Below, in pieces: positions 15,705-44,969 of a stretch of 64,000 bases of DNA. The DNA is from Artemia franciscana. Lineage: Eukaryota; Arthropoda; Branchiopoda; Anostraca; Artemiidae. Under the pieces are notes generated by a model. The model had not been told where the DNA came from. It ran no database searches and saw only the letters and a list, made by a program, of their open reading frames with translations. The DNA is taken from positions 806,001 through 870,000 of the forward strand of contig NC_088872.1 of the NCBI RefSeq assembly GCF_032884065.1, read 5' to 3'. The position numbers were made by a program, and so were the translations under genes. Numbering within the stretch: the first letter of the stretch is position 1; each line of letters opens with the position of its first letter.

Positions 15705-16025
15705 CTTCAAGACTGAAGAAAAGTGGATATTTGACAAAAAGAGAGTAGATAAAGAAAAGAAGCGGTATGATTGATAGCAAATTCGAAAATTAAAAACTAC
15801 CATCCTTCCTACCTTCCAGCGATCTGCTAGAAAGAGGCAAAAGCGAATGTTCCAGTGAAACTGAACAACCATTAGTAATATTTTTAATTTTAAGGGATTA
15901 ATGTCAGTATAGAATTTTTGCAATATTTATTGTTTTCTACATAAAGCTTTTCTGTGATGTAGTCTATAGATATGATTCTAGGCTTAAAAATGAACTTGTT
16001 ACATATGAGACTTGTATTGAATAGG

Positions 16026-17044: not shown

Positions 17045-18142
17045 GAGTACGAGAATAAGAAGAAACTGGACATTGCTGATGATTTTAGAAATAAAGATTT
17101 TAAAAAGTTTTGGGGCTATATAAAGAATGATAGTGGAAAGGGAAATGTTAATACCCAGGTTGTTCCGGAAGTTGATTCATGGCCTGATTACCTACAAAAT
17201 TTGGAAGGTGATTGTGTAGATCTTCAGGAGGTAGCGCATAACCCAAAGGAGTTTATTTATCCTATGAGGGAACATGATTACGATTTAGTGGGTTATGTGA
17301 ATGGCCAAGAGATTAAGTCGATATTTAAGAATTTAAAAGGTGGTATTGCTGCGGGTGTTGATGGTATAAATAAAATTATTTAAGAATTTTCTTTCCATTT
17401 TAATGCCGATAATTGTTCTTCTTTGTAATAAGGTGTTAAGGTCAGGGCAATGGCCAATCGCTTGGAAGACATCATTGTTTATACCACTTTTTAAGAGAGG
17501 AAACCCGAAGGCTCATGAAAATTGTCGTTTAATTGTGCTTGTCCCTGCCTTAAGTAAGGTTTTGGAGAAAATATTAGATACTAGGCTTTCCAATTGGTTA
17601 AATAAAAATAATTTAATACATGAGGAACAAGGAGGTTTCAGGATAGGGCATGGGAAGACAGATAGTGCGTTTATTTTAAAGGCATTAATAGATAAATATG
17701 GAAAGGGTAAAATTTGTCTTTATGCGGGATATCTGGATCTCCATAAGGCTTTTGATAGTGTCGACAGAGTTATTGAATGATGTCCTGCTAAATATTGGCC
17801 TTCCCCATTCATTTTTTAGATTGATAGTGAGCATGTATACTTGTGAGTGGAATTATACAAGTTGGTAATAGGTTCTTGAAGCTTTTTGATATGAAGCGGG
17901 GAGTAAAACAAGGCAGCACCCTTTCACCTAAGTTGTAAATATTCTTATTAGTGATGTTATTAACTTTCTAGAGAATAGATGGGCTCCGAAAATTAGCCTA
18001 GGGACTCAAAAACTATCTCTCTTATTATTTGCAGATGATATTGCTTTGGTGGCTAATAAACCGCAAGATCTACAGACACTTTTGAATCTCATAGAAGAAT
18101 ATTCGCAGATTATCCAGCTTTGTCGCAATGACCTTGAGTAGT
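17045..18142 (+). pseudogene. Non-LTR retrotransposon (LINE) reverse transcriptase, broken
   Basis: Pieces of one reverse transcriptase in successive frames. The lead-in contains KKFWGYIKND and AAGVDGINK. The palm region has LFKRGNPKAHENCR, ALSKVLEKILDTRL and GFRIGHGKTDSAF, then the first catalytic block YLDLHKAFDSVDR (the usual F/Y-x-D-x-x-KAFD). A weak RGVKQGSTLSP follows in another frame, then LLFADDIALVANK, the [YF]ADD motif, near 18030. Frameshifts and stops near 17380 and 17780-17940 make it inactive. The endonuclease domain and the 3' end are missing. The family is jockey/CR1-like in style; I cannot place it more exactly. Confidence 0.85.
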
Positions 18143-20320: not shown

Positions 20321-20543
20321 ATTATACGTTTTTATCTTTTAGTTTTCAGTCAAGAAATGCTGAAGTTAAAATATAAACAGCAAAAATATTTATTGTGTTT
20401 AACCAATAACAATATTTTTTTTATTGAATCTAGAACAATACCTGAAAATTCTAAAATACGTATAAAATACGATTATTTTTTAGACTCATAATTGTAGATA
20501 CAGAACAACTTAGGTAACATATAAGGCAAACTATTGAAAAAAT

Positions 20544-22445
20544 ATGATGTTTTATAAAATTTACCAACAAAATAAAGATAACGATGTCAAATTAGCATTT
20601 GCTGATGGAAAGGACAGAAGAAAAATATACAGTTTTAATGACTATTTTGATATTGTGGCAATCGTTGCAAAGGCCTTTTTAAGATTAGGATTGAAAGCGG
20701 GTGACAGTGTATGTATTGTTGCAACCAATCGTCCAGAATGGTGTTTTTCACACTTTGGTGCCATTGAAGCAGGAGGGATAGCCGTAGGAATTTACCCAAA
20801 ACACAAAAAAGAAACAATAATATATTGTTTGAAAAAGTGTTCGGCGAAAATACTCATATCAGATAGTAGAAAGCTTATTGATGACATCCATAAAACTGAA
20901 ATCCCGCAATTAAAGGCCATAATTTTTTGCTGTGGCAAGGATAAAATCATAGCAGAGGAGAAATATTATTCCTGGGCTAGGCTTTTAGAAATCGGTAAAG
21001 CTGAAAGCCAGGAATGTTTGATGGAAGCTAAAAGAGGAATAAAATCCGATTCATGCTGTTTGATTCATTTCGAGGAAGAATCCAAAGGTATTCCACCCAA
21101 AGGTGTTAAGTTAAGTCATCAGAATATCTTGGAAAGTATTACCGCAATTCAGGATAAAATGGGTTTGGAAGAAGAATTAGCCAACAAAGGCAAACCAAAC
21201 AGGATCTTAAGTGTGATGCCAATTAGCCATGTAAATGCCCTAATGACGGATATCTATATCCCTTTATTAAAGGGTTGGTCCGTCTACTTTGAAGACATAA
21301 CAGAAAAGGACTTCCATTTAATAAAATCCTTAAAACTGGTCAGGCCCTTATATTTTTTTGCAAGTCCGGTCTTGTTAGAAATAATTAACGATTTTATTTC
21401 TGACGCTCGCATTGTGAGGTACAAAAACATATCGACGAAACTGTTCTTCGGGACTTTTTCTTCTGAAAGAAAACATCGCCTAAGAAAATTAGCTGGTATG
21501 GATAAATGCAAAAAAATATTTTGTATTGGAGGTCAGAATTCCAAAATTTCTGACCATGTTTTTAATAGCTTATTGCGCTTGGGTTTTCACATACAAGAAG
21601 TCTTTGGATGTAGTGAGACTTGCGGGCCCCATTTGTGGGCTGAGTTCAAAGCCAAAGAAGGTTGGGTCTTCACTAGCCATAGTGATCAAAAGGCTTCTAT
21701 TCTGGAAAAAAGTGAGCTTGTATTGAGTGGAAAAAATATATTTTTAGGTTATCTTGGGGATGAAGAAGCTACAAATAAAGCTATTAAAGATGATGGGTAC
21801 CACACGGGACACATTATCAAAAGTATGAAGACAAGAGATTTCTATGATTTCGAAGCCAAAATTGAAAACGAAATCAAGAAATCTCTGCCATTTGTTCATT
21901 ATACACTTATAATTAAGGACGAAGAAGAAAAATGTATTGACATTATTCTTTACCTGAAAACCTTAAGAGAAGAAAATGAACGCCGTTTCCACCAAGACGT
22001 TCGCAACTTAATTAATAGCTCCTTTTCGACAGAAGAAGTAGATGCAATAATGAAAATGTATTCTTCATTTTTTGAAGAAGAAAATATGCAATTCAAAATA
22101 AAAAAAAGACTTACACTAACAGCAAAACATTGGTTCAAAAATCACGCTTCAGTGGAAGTTTATGAAGTATCAGACATACAAAAGCTTTGGAATGGTGATG
22201 TTACAAGTAAAGTTAAAAACGTAATTATAGACCTATTGCGTCCAATAGGTATTAACTGCAATATCAACATCCGGAATGTTGGAATTGAGCCGGAAAATAC
22301 TTCGTTTGCTGAAATGGGAGCCCAATTGAAACCTAAATGTGATCTTTTGCATGAAAAGTATGAAAAAGAGAAGTTGGATGGGCAAAAAAAAAATTTAATT
22401 TGCTTGACAAATAATCATCCTAGACCTTCTGCTTCCAATAGATAA
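20544..22445 (+). CDS. Bubblegum-type acyl-CoA synthetase relative, probably catalytically dead
   Basis: A 633-codon single-exon ORF without stops. Residues 1-450 follow the long-chain/bubblegum acyl-CoA synthetase (AMP-forming, ANL superfamily) layout: TNRPEWCFSHFGAIEAGG (61-78), KGVKLSHQNI (186-195), a PISHV segment (226-230) and FGCSETCGPH (354-363). Such enzymes make acyl-CoA from fatty acid, ATP and CoA. Key parts look lost: the YTSGTTG-type nucleotide loop reads IHFEEESKG (174-182) with an extra proline before KGV; the Asp of the HTGD motif is His (YHTGH, 419-423); the GRxKE hinge region is missing; and no clear C-terminal catalytic Lys is visible. Residues about 553-597 (KVKNVIIDLL to SFAEMGAQL) faintly resemble an acyl-carrier domain lacking its phosphopantetheine Ser. 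ATG-ATG at 20544 is the first start. No intron or poly(A) tract is evident. An intact frame with dead motifs suggests either a non-enzymatic role or recent origin. Confidence 0.75.
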   Translation: MMFYKIYQQNKDNDVKLAFADGKDRRKIYSFNDYFDIVAIVAKAFLRLGLKAGDSVCIVATNRPEWCFSHFGAIEAGGIAVGIYPKHKKETIIYCLKKCSAKILISDSRKLIDDIHKTEIPQLKAIIFCCGKDKIIAEEKYYSWARLLEIGKAESQECLMEAKRGIKSDSCCLIHFEEESKGIPPKGVKLSHQNILESITAIQDKMGLEEELANKGKPNRILSVMPISHVNALMTDIYIPLLKGWSVYFEDITEKDFHLIKSLKLVRPLYFFASPVLLEIINDFISDARIVRYKNISTKLFFGTFSSERKHRLRKLAGMDKCKKIFCIGGQNSKISDHVFNSLLRLGFHIQEVFGCSETCGPHLWAEFKAKEGWVFTSHSDQKASILEKSELVLSGKNIFLGYLGDEEATNKAIKDDGYHTGHIIKSMKTRDFYDFEAKIENEIKKSLPFVHYTLIIKDEEEKCIDIILYLKTLREENERRFHQDVRNLINSSFSTEEVDAIMKMYSSFFEEENMQFKIKKRLTLTAKHWFKNHASVEVYEVSDIQKLWNGDVTSKVKNVIIDLLRPIGINCNINIRNVGIEPENTSFAEMGAQLKPKCDLLHEKYEKEKLDGQKKNLICLTNNHPRPSASNR

Positions 22446-23045
22446 AAAGCACAATGCCAATATCCGGAATGTTGGATTTTAGCCAGATTTTAGTCGCTTA
22501 AAATACCCGAGTTAAGCCGTGTTTGTTTTGTTTGATAAGTTAGTTTGTTCAAACCATTATAATGTTCTTTCTCCATTTCACAGCCGTTAGCTTTCATTTG
22601 AAACGGAAAAATTATATGAAGTGGCGAAGTAGTTTTGTATATATTTAGAGATCGTTTTGTCTCCTTTTTTTAAAAGGATTAAAGGGAATGGCAAGTCTGG
22701 ACCCAGTCTATACATTTCCATCATCCCCAAAGAAGCAAATATTTACAGTGATGGTAATTACAATGGTGGAATAGAATAGAATAGTACTTTATTAACAAGC
22801 AAACTTTCACAACATAAAAACTTCCGATTAAGTAAAATTAACGCAGTAAACCAAAGAAAAGTTAGTTGTTTTTTTTTTACACGCCTTCAAACAAAACTTA
22901 AGCTAGGACTATCCAAAAAATTCACCAATTAGTGAGACACAATTTTTATCAGCCGGGGGAATGACGAGTTCGGACCCGGTCTATGCATTTCCATCATCCT
23001 CAAAGAAGCAAATATTTTCAGCGATGGCAATTACAATGGTACAAC
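22446..23045. repeat. Gene-tail duplicate and a ~280 bp tandem duplication
   Basis: 22463-22476 repeats a piece of the gene's own 3' coding region (tccggaatgttgga, also at 22270-22283). Then 22690-22760 and 22970-23045 are related copies (both with tttccatcatcc and aaagaagcaaatatt), about 280 bases apart. No gene is seen. Confidence 0.7.
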
Positions 23046-23084
23046 CATGGTGTGAACTCAAGTAAAATTAAAGCAGTAAAAGAG

Positions 23085-23376
23085 TCTATGTCAAAAGGCT
23101 TGCGACTAATAGAGAAACTATGAAAAGAAAGCGTGCCCAGGAATCACATCAACAGCGTGAAAACAGGCTTGCGTCTCAAAGAGAAAGCGCCAAAAGAAAG
23201 CGTGCCGAGGAATCATAAGAGCAACCTGAAAATTTTCACCTGGCATTCAGGTACAGCCCAGTCGATGATTATAGCTTGAGTAGATGTGTTCAAATCTAAT
23301 GGTGAAACAATGGGAATGTGTTGAACCTCAGGAAAAGTTAAACTTCGTCAACTGGATACACCAGAGGAATCCTAAA
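23085..23376 (+). pseudogene. Helitron replication/helicase protein, N-terminal remnant
   Basis: The frame reads two tandem copies of an R-L-A-x-x-R-E-x-x-K-R-K-R-A-x-E-S unit, a stop, then ENFHLAFRYSPVDDYSLSRC. After a further stop and a short deletion comes GETMGMC-stop-TSGKVKLRQL. The order (basic repeats, a YSPxDDY-type segment, a GExxGMCC-type segment, SGKVKL) matches the N-terminal region of the Helitron-like proteins that precede the HUH replication initiator and PIF1-type helicase. The stop replaces the second Cys of the GMCC motif. No HUH or helicase domain remains. Confidence 0.65.
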
Positions 23377-26393: not shown

Positions 26394-29300
26394 AATTAAA
26401 ATGGCTCTACTCGTTTTTGAAAAAAAATATCTTGTTTGGAGGTTTTTAAATTAATTTCTGTTGGTTTTGATTGCCAAGGTCTTATCATTGTTTAATATTA
26501 CGAAAATATTTCCGGTTTTTCTATTTCAGGATTAAAATTTTGGATAACTTGTTAACTTGCATAAGGTAGTCTGAGTGGTAGCTTTAAATGTATTCAATTT
26601 ATTTGTAACTGTAACGTAGGAGTATAATTGGTGTTATGTCAAAAAGATTTTGAAGCCAGCAATCATTTTGACAATCAGGATGGAGAAAATATGTTTTGAT
26701 CCAGCTCAACATTCTCCTCTTCATTCCTCGAAAATATTAGAATAAGACCCTTACCTTCCTAAGATACTGCAGATACGCCATTTAGGAACCTTGATACACA
26801 TAGTGTTTTTTATCTAGTTCAATACCTCTCCTCCAATGATTCCCTGAAAATTTCAACTGAAGTAGTAGTAACAGTAACAATCAGTAGTAGCAGTTACAAG
26901 TAGTAGTAGTTGTAGCATCTCACAAGTAGTAATAGTGGTCGCAAGTGGTAGCAGTAATCGCAATAGAAGCAGTCGCAAATAATTGAAGTAGTTTGCATTT
27001 AGTTACAGTAGTCACAAGTAAAAGTAGTAGTACTATGCACTAAGTGTCTTTTGGTTAGTTTAACATCCCCTAAAAGTTTCAACTTAATAGGTGCAGCAGT
27101 TTCTGAGGCATTACTGATATGCACTTTAGATAAGATGCACGCACAGTGTATATTTTAATTTTTTTTTTTTCAAGATCCCACTCATCATATCCTAAAAATT
27201 TCACGTTAATGCTCTAAAGCTTTTTGGACACCTGGGATCAAACACGTCCCCCTTTCTCAACAACAAACTCTATATGAAAAAATGGACAACTTTAATAGCT
27301 TAAAGCCCTTGCGCTAAGGGGTGTTGGGGGTCATTTCATCTCAGGAAGCCCAGTGTTTGACCTCTCGATTATTTTGAAAAAATGACTATCTTTAAATTTG
27401 TTCTGATGTCTTTGATCGGAGGGTAGCTAAAAGGGCATGGAAGCGTGGCTAGTTGCCTTTCGATTACTTTTGACTCTTAAAAAAGGACACTGAAAATTTA
27501 AATTTCCAATTAAATGACAACCCCCTCCTCCCCCAGAGGTTCTACGACCACCCCTTCCAAATTGTATATTTTTGAAAAAAAAAGAATAAACAAATAAATA
27601 ATATATTGAAGGCTTATGGCTTTTTACTGCAGACAACGTTGGAGCGTTTCCCTTCCACATTTGTTTACGTATCAAAATCCTTGCCAAATAAGAATCATTT
27701 TCGTATTTATCAACAGCTCTATAAGTTTAATGTTCTGTAATGTGCAGATCAAATTACGACATGACTAGGCGACTATCTTTAATTCTAAGATGGCAGATAT
27801 ATCAGCTATTTTAACTAACAATAATCTTAGGTAGTCTGTATACAATCTAAATTTTAATACCATACTATAAATCATACCGTTTCATAAAAAAAAACTGACC
27901 AAAAACGATTTCAAAGGAAACAAAGGTCATTCACAAAAATACCAGCATAAATACGAAAAATATCCCAGAAAAAAAAAACATAGAAAAATAATCAGGATAT
28001 CTGATTATGACGAGCATCATACGCCAGAATCAGGGTTGCCATTACACGCTGCGACATCATTCTCAACTATAAAAAAAAATTCAGCAAGACAACAAACAGT
28101 ACTGTATTCAGGATTTTTGTTTTAACTGAAGGAGGAGCACAAAGTAATTGTACAAAAATTTAAATTTATGAACATTATATTTTCTTCAAAGTTACTGACT
28201 TAAAGGGAAAGTACTAAAAAGTAATATTTTCTTTAAATGTGCTGATAAGACACTGTTTTGGAAATAATTTATTGCTCAAATGCAGATAGACTGTCAGTGG
28301 CAACTTTGAGCAAGATATCAAAACATTAAAAACTACATGACCGTTGAAAGCCATAAAACTACTACCAGGAATTAAAAAAGCCTTATGTTATTTACCATAA
28401 ACTTTACGGGAAATAAAAACTGCAAAATACAATACATGTTTTCGTACTGTTTTTGGCGTTCAATTGCTTGTAGAGAGGAAGTTTTTTTTACCTATCGAGA
28501 TACTTCAGAAACTGCACAAACAAATTCCGAGAATGCTAACGCCATAAAACAAAATCTCAACACTAAAAAAAACTGTAAGATCACTGAGCCAACAAAATGG
28601 CTTATGATATTTGCCATTAACTTTATAGGGAAAAAACTTTTGGGACCTTACAAGGTTTTCTCACTGTTATTGGTGATCAGTTGCTTCCAGAGCGAGTTTT
28701 TTCAAGGCTGGAACAGAGACCACTGGTAATTTACAAGAGCGAAAATTGCAAGTGTTTAAAAAGAAAATCACCGGTGCCACATAACGTTTCTTGGCATTTT
28801 TCAGTGTAATAATGAGGCAAAATTATTGTATTTGCAAAACTAATGTAGTGACAAGTGTTCCATCGAATTTTCTGCAAAAAAAAATACGAAGTTTGAGAAA
28901 ATGCAAAGAAACGGAAAGTGTTAGATGGCGTTGTTTTTTGTTTTTTTTTTTAGGCTAGCACCAGTTCTCACTCTTATAATTTGCCAATTCCCTTTGGCTT
29001 TGGAACAAGATTTAAGGTGGCGTTTGCTTTTTCTATTTTTTTTAATTGGTTTAAAATTTTATTTAGAAGGAAAAAAGGATAAAACTCATTTTGAAACTAA
29101 GCAAGTTTTACACATATTTAGAGACTAACAAGATAGAAGAAAACAGACTAAACTGATCAATTAGGCATGTTGAATTTATGAGGATGACTTTACGAATGTC
29201 AAACTGACAGAAGATTTGACAATGATGTCTTCAGAATTACACAAGCCAGAATAAATTCAAACCCCATATAAATTCAGAGTTGACCATGGAACATACAAGA

Positions 29301-29965
29301 CTGAAGAAAAGTGGATATTTGACAAAGAAGAGAGCAGATAAAGAAAAGAAGCAGTATGATTGATCGTAAATTCAAAAATTATAAACTATCAACCTTCCTA
29401 CCATCCAGCGATCTGCTAGAAAGAGGCAAAAGGGAATGTTCCAGTGAAACTGAACAACAATTAGTAACATTTTTAATTTTAAGGGATTAATGTCAGTAGA
29501 GAATTTTTTATATTACATACAGCTTAAAAGACTATCGAAAATTGTCTTTTAGGAGTATTTAGCGAATCTTGGAAATATTTGTTGTTTTCTACTTAGAATT
29601 TTTCTGGGATGTAGTCTATAGTTATGATTCTAGGCTTAAAAATGAACTTGCTACATATGAGACTTGCATTGAAAAAATCTTTATGTCAATATTTTGACTT
29701 ATCCTGCAATGCAGGATACCTTGAAAAGAAAAGAAAACTTAGAGAAAAAATCTATTTAAAAACTGTGACACTAGTAAATGTTCAGAAAGAAGTGTAAAAT
29801 TTAGATACAAATTTTGCATGTTTGCAGTTTTAAACGATTTTTGTTGTTTCCACTAGTCAACGGATTTTTCGACTATTCGTCGGACAAGTTTCCTTCTTAA
29901 ATCAGAGACAAATCTGAACTTAAAAGAGTCTGTAGAACAGGTAACGCTGAAATAGTTGTGGATTC
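26394..29965. repeat. Diverged copy D of the duplication unit
   Basis: Aligns with about 2800-5885 and then 15705-16365, with many substitutions and small indels. It lacks the tRNA-Arg-like insertion (clean site at 28185-28194) and lacks the second 287 bp unit, so it represents the older state. It has its own ~130-base segment at 28219-28345. Frames open in copies A to C are broken here, which argues that the unit is non-coding. Confidence 0.9.
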
Positions 29966-42449: not shown

Positions 42450-44969
42450 AGGATCATCAACTAAAAAACGGAGTCAATACAACAAATTAATAATGTTTAC
42501 AAATGCAGGAATGAAACTCTTCCTGTATCTGTCGTGGTGTATCTCTTGGTGGGGAAGGTTGAAGGGTGGGGACTTTCTGGAAGTTGGGTCTTTGAGGTCG
42601 GGATCTTAAAGGTTGATCCCGGTTTGTTTGGAGTTTGTCATGGCTTTATTGCCAAATTGAGTACACAGTAGGGCTCTTCTCTCTGATAAGAGAGTGAGCT
42701 GGAAATGCAAGAAGAAAGTGATATGGGAGTTTACCTTGGCCATAGGTATTCTTTAATTCTCGCTTCTGGACTGACTCAATTGAATAAGATTGGGAAGTAG
42801 TTCAGCCAAAATGCCAAACCGAACAAGAATATTCAAGACAAAGGCAGATAAAGCTTAAATTCTTAAAAGGTGGATTGCAGGGCAAGAAAACTTGAAGAAA
42901 AATTTAAGCGTAGGAAGTACCAAATTAGCTTGCTTTGTGATGTTAATAACATGGACCGTCCACTTCAGACCGCTCGAGATAGTGATACCGAGGAGTTTGC
43001 ACTACTGGACGGACATCTCCGGAGGGGTTGGTTGCTTGAAACTGATAGTCATGATATTTGACTTTTTGGCATTCACAGTCATATCAGCCTATGCGGCGTC
43101 ACTGGAAACATCTCCCATGATTTCCATGGCTGAGCTTTTCAAATTTTCCCGGCATTTTTCCAGTAAGGACATGTCGTCGACAAACTTCCAGCGTTCAGGG
43201 TGTTCAGTAGCAAGTCCATTTATCATAATCAGGAGTTCTACTGAACAGGAAAGACTATTATTCTAACAAGGTTTGGGTTAACATGGAAATCTTTTAGGAG
43301 TTTTTCAAGTAAAACATTGTGGTCAATCAGATCAAAAGCTTTTTGGAGGTCTATTAGAAGTAGATTTAGCCAAACATCAGCCCTTTCTAAATTTTTATAT
43401 ATTTTACCCAGTAAGATTACAAGATAATGAGTAGTTGAAGGGCCACGTTGATTACCAAATTTCTTTAGGTCAATAAGTTGTTCAATTTTTGATTTGATCC
43501 AATCAGTCAGAAAGCTTTCATAAAATTTCAAAAAAACTGAGGTGAGCGTAGTTGGTTGAACTCCTTGAAGCACTCCTCAGCGTCCTTCTTCTGAGTCGGC
43601 GTCACGAATCCCTGGTTCCAGGTGTCAAGGTAGCACCCACTTTCGGTGATCGTGCAGAAAATATCTGCCAGTGGTAAGGACAACTTATCAGTGAAGGCTT
43701 TGACAAGTATGACCGGAATATCTGCTGGCTTTCATCCTGACATAGTCAGATTTTCATCCTGACTATGGGGAATAGAATCAAGAGTCTCTGCGGAAAGTGG
43801 AGGTAATGCCTGGTCAATCTTAGCAAGGTGTTTGTTGAGATCATTAGCAGTTTTAATACTAGGCTCATTAAGCTGGAAATCAATATTACTAATTTGCTTG
43901 CCAGAAAGTTTTTTAACTAGATCATCGCACTTCTTGGGGTTATAATGAAAAGTAGTCTTCATAGTATTTTTATAGTACATGGCAGCTGCTTTTCGAATTT
44001 GTTTTTATCATCATTTTACTCATATGGTTGGCTTCGTCTTTTTTATCATTACGAAGTAAACGAATTTTTTCTTTGATCTTGACTTTTAGAGATTCACTAA
44101 CGCAGGGTTTATCATATGAAACTCTTTTCAGTTTTCTTTTCGGGAAAATATTTTTCATAATTATCAGATAGCTTCATTTGAAAAATTTGAACTTTAGAAT
44201 TGACATAAGGAGTAGCTAAGACCTCAGACCAGCTCTCTTCAGAAATCCAGAAACCTAAATTGAAAATACCTCCGTCGGTTAGTGGGCGACGCAGCGTTTC
44301 AATGACTTTGTATTCGACCTTGATTTGATCCAGTGGTTGCATTTTGAGAATATAATAGTAGCTCCCTCCTGAAGGTGGTAAGGCTTCTGATTGACTGTAG
44401 AACTTATGGAAGTTAGAACAGATGACATCTAAAGAGGACCCTCCTTTGGTTGTGGGTATATTTACTACTTGTTTTAGGTGTAGACCTCTGCATAGGTATT
44501 CAACTTTCAGTTCATTGGCGTTACCAAGGAGTAAAATCCGAGCGTTTGGCTTGAATTTTTTCAACGAACTTTCGTCAAATCCCCGCATGCTGACTTGGGG
44601 AGTAATAGAAATTACATACTAGGATATTACACAGTGGACGAGGGAGTACTTTTGGTTTAATACTTATCCACATGATTCCACAATAATCATCAATACCGGG
44701 GATTTTGATCACTTTTGGACTAAATTCCTAACGGCACAGCAAGAGAAGTTCCCACTAAGCTTACCAAGTGGGTGATCGGTTGGCCTCAGTTTCAAAAAAA
44801 AATTATAGCCTGAAGCTTTCAGGAAGTCAGTGTGTTGCACTTGGACTCCAGTTACAGCAACAAGGTGGGAATTAGTGAGATTCGGCATAATAGCCAGTTC
44901 TGTCATTTTCTCGGTTGAGACTCTCAGCATTACAGAGCAAGAAATTTGGAAAATGGTATCTTGAACCAA
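42450..44969 (-). pseudogene. Near-complete but broken LINE in Aurora intron 3
   Basis: Minus strand, 5' to 3': apurinic-type endonuclease remnants at 44969-44112 (STEKMTELAIMPN; ARILLLGNANELKVEYL; TTKGGSSLDVICSN), a linker at 44158-43732, then reverse transcriptase at 43573-43238 (FGNQRGPSTTHYLV and LLIDLQKAFDLIDHNVL). After a frameshift comes a FVDDMS version of the YADD motif near 43160, then KCNxMTISF-like and LLGITISRGLKWTVHV segments down to about 42890. Frameshifts and stops throughout make it inactive. The layout suits the CR1/jockey group. It is sense to the host gene. Confidence 0.8.

Follow-up and report, generated by a model that had tools for sequence, protein, structure and literature searches.

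Bubblegum acyl-CoA synthetases (ACSBG) are members of the AMP-binding family and of the ANL enzymes, in which a series of motifs, named A3 to A10, is recognized: A3 holds the phosphates of ATP, A7 holds the ribose, and A8 is a moving hinge. Pseudoenzymes, i.e. proteins that keep the fold of an enzyme without its chemistry, and retrogenes are both known kinds. No ACSBG pseudoenzyme and no Artemia ACSBG surfaced in the literature searched, the coverage of which was partial, so that this is weak evidence of newness. We analyzed a window of 64,000 nucleotides of Artemia franciscana DNA (the whole stretch considered here, contig C10:806001-870000), which contains an intact open reading frame (ORF) for an ACSBG-like protein, referred to as P1. 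We propose, with moderate confidence, that P1 stems from an old retroposition and has been kept as a pseudo-synthetase without catalytic activity, which may bind an acyl ligand or a partner.

20544..22445, plus strand: intact ORF of 633 codons (633 residues), ACSBG-derived, with its ATG at 20544 and its stop codon at 22443-22445

The coordinates and the openness of this ORF, as given in the original prediction made from the DNA letters, were borne out by reading the sequence: there are no internal stops, no frameshifts, and no intron inside the ORF, and an in-frame TGA (20535) lies directly upstream of the start. The assignment to the acyl-CoA synthetases was also confirmed, as a hidden Markov model (HMM) search found Pfam AMP-binding (PF00501) over residues 15-403 (E 6.6e-36). 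This was the only family over the cut-off in the Pfam scan of P1; AMP-binding_C_3 was not detected. In protein searches, the best match outside Artemia was an ant bubblegum protein (E 9.7e-40). The ORF is not due to chance, because it runs for 633 codons in DNA of 33% GC and can be matched over most of its extent to a single protein family; judging from these matches, P1 is a descendant of ACSBG. In the original prediction, the fold segments adjacent to the degenerate motifs were described as remaining. The structure predicted for P1 was that of an ANL acyl-CoA synthetase (predicted local distance difference test score 83.6, predicted template modelling score 0.85), in which the N-terminal part forms the body and the C-terminal part a lid of reduced size.

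We compared the motifs of P1 with those of 55 non-Artemia relatives to which it was aligned.

21063..21104, plus strand: degenerate A3 ATP loop, residues 174-187 (IHFEEESKGIPPKG), T-S-G-T being changed to E-E-E-S, with G182, K186, and G187 kept
21603..21632, plus strand: retained A5 motif FGCSETCGPH, residues 354-363, with Glu358 (E in 55/55 relatives)
21798..21812, plus strand: A7 motif YHTGH, residues 419-423, with Asp changed to His423 (D in 55/55 relatives and in both C16 paralogues described below)
21816..21863, plus strand: position at which the A8 hinge (GRxKE and the residues after it) has been lost, residues 425-440, with a 17-column gap against canonical ACSBG

The ATP loop of P1 reads EEESKG instead of TSGTTG and does not conform to the phosphate-loop pattern [ST]SG[ST]TG. 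Positions 177, 178, 179, and 180 are E, E, E, and S in P1; the first is T in 54 of the 55 relatives, and the other three are S, G, and T in all of them. Position 181 is K (T in 49/55), and the following Gly182 is shared with 54 relatives. The Asp of the A7 pattern H[ST]GD is replaced by His423. At the hinge, GR is aligned with AK of P1 (residues 438-439), and xKE and the next residues fall inside the gap, the position of which is unsure, pairwise alignments (e.g., with P0003, see below) putting it slightly earlier. Decayed copies of P1 that span the hinge site, described below, read as P1 does. Lys186, the A4 His (His229), and the A5 Glu (Glu358) are retained in P1, each being conserved in 55/55 relatives. 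Thus the four motif claims of the original prediction all held: the changed loop IHFEEESKG with its residue numbers (174-182), YHTGH without its Asp, the lost or changed GRxKE hinge, and the intact FGCSETCGPH. Because the parts that deal with the ATP phosphates (A3), the ribose (A7), and the hinge movement (A8) are gone, adenylation is unlikely, and P1 is predicted to be without catalysis.

A search of the genome (1.27 Gb, 6468 contigs) with P1 gave at least 90 matches at E 0.001 or better, 70 of the 213 candidates having been scored. Two of the relatives are intronless, open paralogues on C16 (the ORFs of loci L034 and L035, the latter corresponding to protein P0003), which share 88.7% identity between themselves and 38.5-39% with P1; a third, on C19 (L036), is decayed, intronless, and 40.6% identical to P1. 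With bee ACSBG as a query, and leaving its weaker matches aside, we located an intron-bearing ACSBG at C17:4052180-4116841. It was read in at least nine exon pieces over 64 kb, with SGTTGNPKG, HSGDIG, and GRIKE intact, and is 32.6% identical to P1 over 457 positions. Introns were judged inside the ORFs only, and none was found in P1, L034, or L035, as opposed to the C17 gene. The missing introns, by themselves, point to retroposition as the likely, and old, ultimate origin of P1, and the C17 ACSBG may represent the parental lineage. Among the matches listed in the protein searches, A. franciscana was the only species of its genus.

The changed loop is not a peculiarity of P1. Where P1 has EEES and the C17 gene TSGT, the C16 genes have EDGS and EDES, and the C19 relative has TEGS. 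All four intronless members have an acidic residue at position 178 and Ser at position 180, and all of them lack the hinge Arg; the C16 and C19 members retain HSGD, but P1 does not. In a tree of 28 rows (rooted at midpoint for drawing only), the four intronless members were on one side of a branch with 100/100 support, P1 was grouped with C19 at 99/94, and the five Artemia rows, including C17, came together at 79/82. Since the intronless members group together and share the acidic residue 178 and Ser180, the loop appears to have been damaged before they split.

Decayed P1-like copies were found in tandem at C10:3.53-3.57 Mb as well as on C630 and C4910, and scattered pieces on C5987, on C58, and elsewhere on C4910. 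They are not all independent, since those on C630 and C4910, which have equal scores, appear to represent segments of the C10 array in near-identical form.

20536..22487, plus strand: unit common to the decayed copies, the fuller ones starting at 20536 and ending at about 22487

Short matches of the decayed copies extend upstream to 20504. We aligned 18 stretches of these copies to P1, from which they differ by 17-19% (81-83% nucleotide identity). All 18 contained frameshifts (1-12) and 16 contained stops (1-9), as opposed to none of either in P1. In a codon model with P1 and seven of the 18 stretches (two of them nearly identical), dN/dS (w) was 0.46 on the branch linking P1 to the copies, which includes the stem of the copies, and 0.80 within the copies. 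Setting w to 1 on the P1 branch worsened the fit by 11.56 log units (likelihood ratio test 23.1, p about 1.5e-6); the loss was 4.23 with a single w and 1.85 when w was set to 1 in the copies. In a model rooted with the C16 pair as outgroup and containing six copies, w was 0.37 on the branch of P1 itself (p = 0.04 against 1) and 0.60 on the stem (p = 0.45). The fitted kappa was 2.1-2.4 in these models. Pairwise w between P1 and the 18 stretches amounted to 0.38-0.68 with kappa 1 and 0.49-0.86 with kappa 2; between copies it was 0.93-1.48 (nine pairs, kappa 2).

Further evidence came from polarizing the differences with a C16 gene. For this we used a copy consensus from 14 of the 18 stretches (two from C630 and two from L033 being dropped), leaving out positions with less than 70% agreement or fewer than three copies. 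Differences on the P1 side numbered 18, 21, and 39 at codon positions 1, 2, and 3, compared with 22, 17, and 19 on the side of the copies; 39, 30, and 50 could not be assigned. In simulations, neutral change of 0.05 per site produced a mean of 4.95 stops, with 0.55% of 2000 runs free of stops; with 0.08 per site, all of 2000 runs acquired at least one stop. Taken together, the decay contrast, the codon models, the polarized differences, and the simulations indicate that P1 was protected over most of its separate history. P1 lacks the marks of a dead pseudogene, i.e. stops or frameshifts and a dN/dS near 1.

The proposed course of events is as follows. An ACSBG mRNA would have been retroposed in an ancestor of Artemia, and the intronless copy would have lost its ATP loop early, through change of Ser to an acidic residue and of Thr to Ser. 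Three or more loci that have remained open (the one in the window and the two on C16) would then have descended from this damaged copy, along with many dead ones. The gene in the window would still be read as a protein which, without phosphate loop, ribose-binding Asp, and hinge Arg, would not be expected to form acyl-adenylates. Most likely, it would instead act as a pseudo-synthetase without turnover, by binding a fatty-acyl ligand or by associating with a partner, for instance the active ACSBG. Since the gene was kept, the folded protein probably has a property of some importance, and a non-enzymatic job is probable because P1 stayed readable while its sister copies decayed. A pseudo-synthetase binding a ligand or a partner is the simplest reading, the ligand or partner role as such being our guess. 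The original prediction of a pseudo-enzyme kept for a non-catalytic role was thus supported as far as its keeping is concerned, by the ORF that is intact compared with its decayed sisters, by dN/dS below 1, and by the loop changes common to the intronless paralogues; the non-catalytic role itself is something that we infer. In a wider and more tentative version, an old Artemia family of retroposed ACSBG proteins without an ATP loop would have acquired a new, selected function, the acidic loop (EEES, EDGS, or TEGS) being more than mere damage and offering a new surface to which, e.g., a metal ion, another protein, or an acyl ligand might bind, and the gene in the window would be its most changed member still under selection.

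Several observations weigh against P1 being a maintained pseudo-synthetase. Selection is moderate (w 0.37-0.46), and the rooted test on P1 alone is borderline. In the rooted model, w of the copies was itself a little less than 1 (0.79, p = 0.035). When the protein was split by domain, p was 0.051 for the N-terminal part and 0.61 for the lid alone, for which constraint is not shown. Pairwise w between P1 and the copies depends on the assumed kappa, reaching 0.55-0.98 at kappa 3. The C16 pair is relaxed (dN 0.053, dS 0.089, w 0.59 with kappa 1). A recent release of P1 from selection would be compatible with the decay contrast, the codon models, the polarized differences, and the simulations. P0002, the submitted A. 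franciscana gene model for this locus, is incomplete, and the 28 residues at its end correspond to a repeat-like stretch (29277-29360) located 7 kb downstream. P1 is presumed to be expressed. A poly-A tract or target-site duplication was not recognized by eye in the printed flanks, no dedicated test having been run. Finally, the place of P1 in the tree is unsure because of its long branch and unusual composition, and an extra Pro in the loop of P1 and the C16 genes, not shared by C19, fits poorly with P1 and C19 being sisters.

Some of these observations would be accounted for if P1 were a dying gene, i.e. a retrogene useful until recently, of which the copy in the window was the last of the array lineage to lose its function and is now neutral and still free of stops. 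The frameshifts in 18/18 sister stretches examined, the moderate w of P1, the lack of a good gene model, the relaxed w of 0.59 in the C16 pair, and the lack of significant constraint on the lid alone would all agree with this. We nevertheless regard it as rather unlikely: neutral change of 0.05 substitutions per site would leave about five stops, P1 is 17-19% away from the copies, and there is a third-position excess on the P1 side. Still less probable, in our opinion, is an active enzyme whose nucleotide site has been rebuilt, in which the EEES loop and His423, together with the retained Glu358 and Lys596, would serve another cofactor or a slow adenylation. The retention of Glu358, His229, Lys186, and Lys596 and the fold preserved in the predicted structure speak for such an enzyme, but four loop positions (TSGT in 54-55 of the 55 relatives), an Asp present in 55/55, and the hinge have all been changed together, and an acidic loop would be expected to repel phosphates.

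The original prediction had also left room for a young inactivated retrocopy. There is indeed no intron within the ORF of P1, and an intact, intron-bearing ACSBG of Artemia from which such a copy could derive is present in the genome. This origin is nonetheless highly improbable, as P1 is only 32.6% identical to the C17 gene, shares its loop damage with the intronless relatives as a family, and stands 17-19% away from its own copies, of which 18/18 stretches examined are frameshifted, as opposed to P1. An old retrogene kept as a pseudo-synthetase remains the explanation that we favor.

The C-terminal end of P1 deserves a separate description.

22290..22379, plus strand: C-terminal tail, residues 583-612, probable ACSBG A10 end with Lys596 (weak HMM and hhalign scores); at this site the C19 relative reads LRPTLKLKR
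22228..22294, plus strand: 67-nucleotide direct repeat, copy 1, inside the ORF (78% identity between copies, spacing 193)
22421..22487, plus strand: 67-nucleotide direct repeat, copy 2, which provides the last codons and the stop and has matches at the end of copies in the array as well

A weak resemblance of the C-terminal ~80 residues to a carrier-protein domain had been suspected. This was not substantiated, since neither the whole of P1 nor either of two pieces of its C-terminus gave a PP-binding Pfam match with a limit of E 10, a range in which HMMER filters drop most matches above about 0.1. Instead, the tail aligns in order with the end of ACSBG (P1 PENTSFAEMGAQLKPKCDLLHEKYEKEKLD versus prawn ACSBG PKDFSIPGGECGPTMKMKRSFIAEKYSDVIEE), though with weak scores: the HMM score was 8.8 bits (best domain 8.3), 4 of 2000 shuffles scoring higher, and hhalign with P1 and seven decayed copies gave P 0.00048 for the lid (probability 13.5%) and P 0.0082 for the tail (probability 4.8%). 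The decayed C19 relative retains NLSIEELRPTLKLKR at the tail site, an intermediate that helps the case. The column of Lys596 is K in 54/55 relatives in this weakly scoring alignment. Residues 583-612 are therefore probably the A10 tail of ACSBG itself, with Lys596 as the A10 Lys. TAK528, a former candidate for this Lys, was wrong, as the alignment places A10 at K596. We also considered that residues 583-633 were a read-through of a former 3' untranslated region, P0003 ending at this point. This idea was dropped because the tail aligns with the A10 end of ACSBG; it is also countered by the consensus of the decayed copies, which is free of stops wherever its codons are resolved and extends to the same end, and by the C16 genes, which look like shortened ones. 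The two C16 ORFs, which differ by one single-codon indel in about 640 codons, both end before the A10 tail, and possible tail remnants were seen by eye beyond their stops. Residues 583-633 taken alone showed no third-position excess (fixed differences 11, 6, and 10 by codon position). The ORF of P1 is closed by the 67-nucleotide direct repeat.

Other features of the relatives and of the window were noted. In the C17 gene, one boundary between exon pieces falls in the P-loop (YT | SGTTG) and another in the hinge (GRIK | ELL), which are the two most-changed places of the intronless family; altered splicing as a cause of the loop change was considered on this ground.

C17:4068601-4073500 (L042/L043): region of the exon break in the P-loop
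C17:4100541-4107050 (L046/L047): region of the exon break in the hinge

On C14 (L039, 347-2479, minus strand), the search with bee ACSBG also revealed an intact, intronless gene for a 710-residue synthetase with canonical YTSGTTGNPKG and HTGD, which we take to be ACSL-like. In the window itself, P0002 gives a 96% overall match with mismatches at its 3' end. A spliced gene as in this model was rejected: the stretch 29277-29360 that encodes its last 28 residues has parts that also match other stretches of the window, and, judging from these matches, the 3' end of the model is a misjoin to repeat-like sequence. This stretch, the last exon of P0002, is a repeated coding-like one (TRLKKSGYLTKKRADKEKKQYD), with weaker partial matches at 15707, 5603, 15421, and 13901. 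A reverse transcriptase ORF fragment (17403-17780, plus strand; Pfam RVT_1, E 6.6e-08) lies about 3 kb upstream of P1. Just past P1, 22477-22673 is 90-93% identical to L037 3928-4076 and 4830-5022, which flank a partial decayed copy on C58; from this identity, a repeat or insertion borders both P1 and the C58 copy. A repeat with a period of 69 nucleotides (23079-23363) is also found in the C10 array region, L031, L033, and L035, near P1 relatives on C10, C4910, and C16. Two minus-strand ORFs, one of 179 residues adjoining P1 (19745-20284) and one of 158 residues (44112-44588), had no Pfam match at E up to 1.

If our interpretation is correct, P1 offers a natural experiment on a synthetase that kept its fold and a cellular role after the loss of its ATP chemistry. 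Open copies occur next to dead ones within a single genome, and the latter provide a nearly neutral yardstick. There is also a warning for annotation, as the loop-less P0003 is already named long-chain-fatty-acid CoA ligase.

In comparison with known systems, P1 resembles the ACSBG/bubblegum synthetases by its AMP-binding family, its modelled ANL fold, the order of its motifs, and a probable tail with an A10-type Lys; it differs from them in having no intron in its ORF and no ATP loop, A7 Asp, or A8 hinge. Prawn ACSBG (P0155) has Pfam AMP-binding_C_3, of which no match was detected in P1. With the C17 ACSBG, P1 shares the grouping of the five Artemia rows, at 79/82 only, and differs by the nine exon pieces, the intact motifs, and the low identity of that gene. 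The ACSBG2-like genes on C16 resemble P1 in being intronless and on the same side of the 100/100 branch, with the acidic residue and Ser at the loop positions and the hinge Arg lost; unlike P1, they keep HSGD, have about 70 extra N-terminal residues, and end before the A10 tail. With pseudoenzymes in general, P1 has in common a kept fold, lost catalytic residues, and an ORF under selection.
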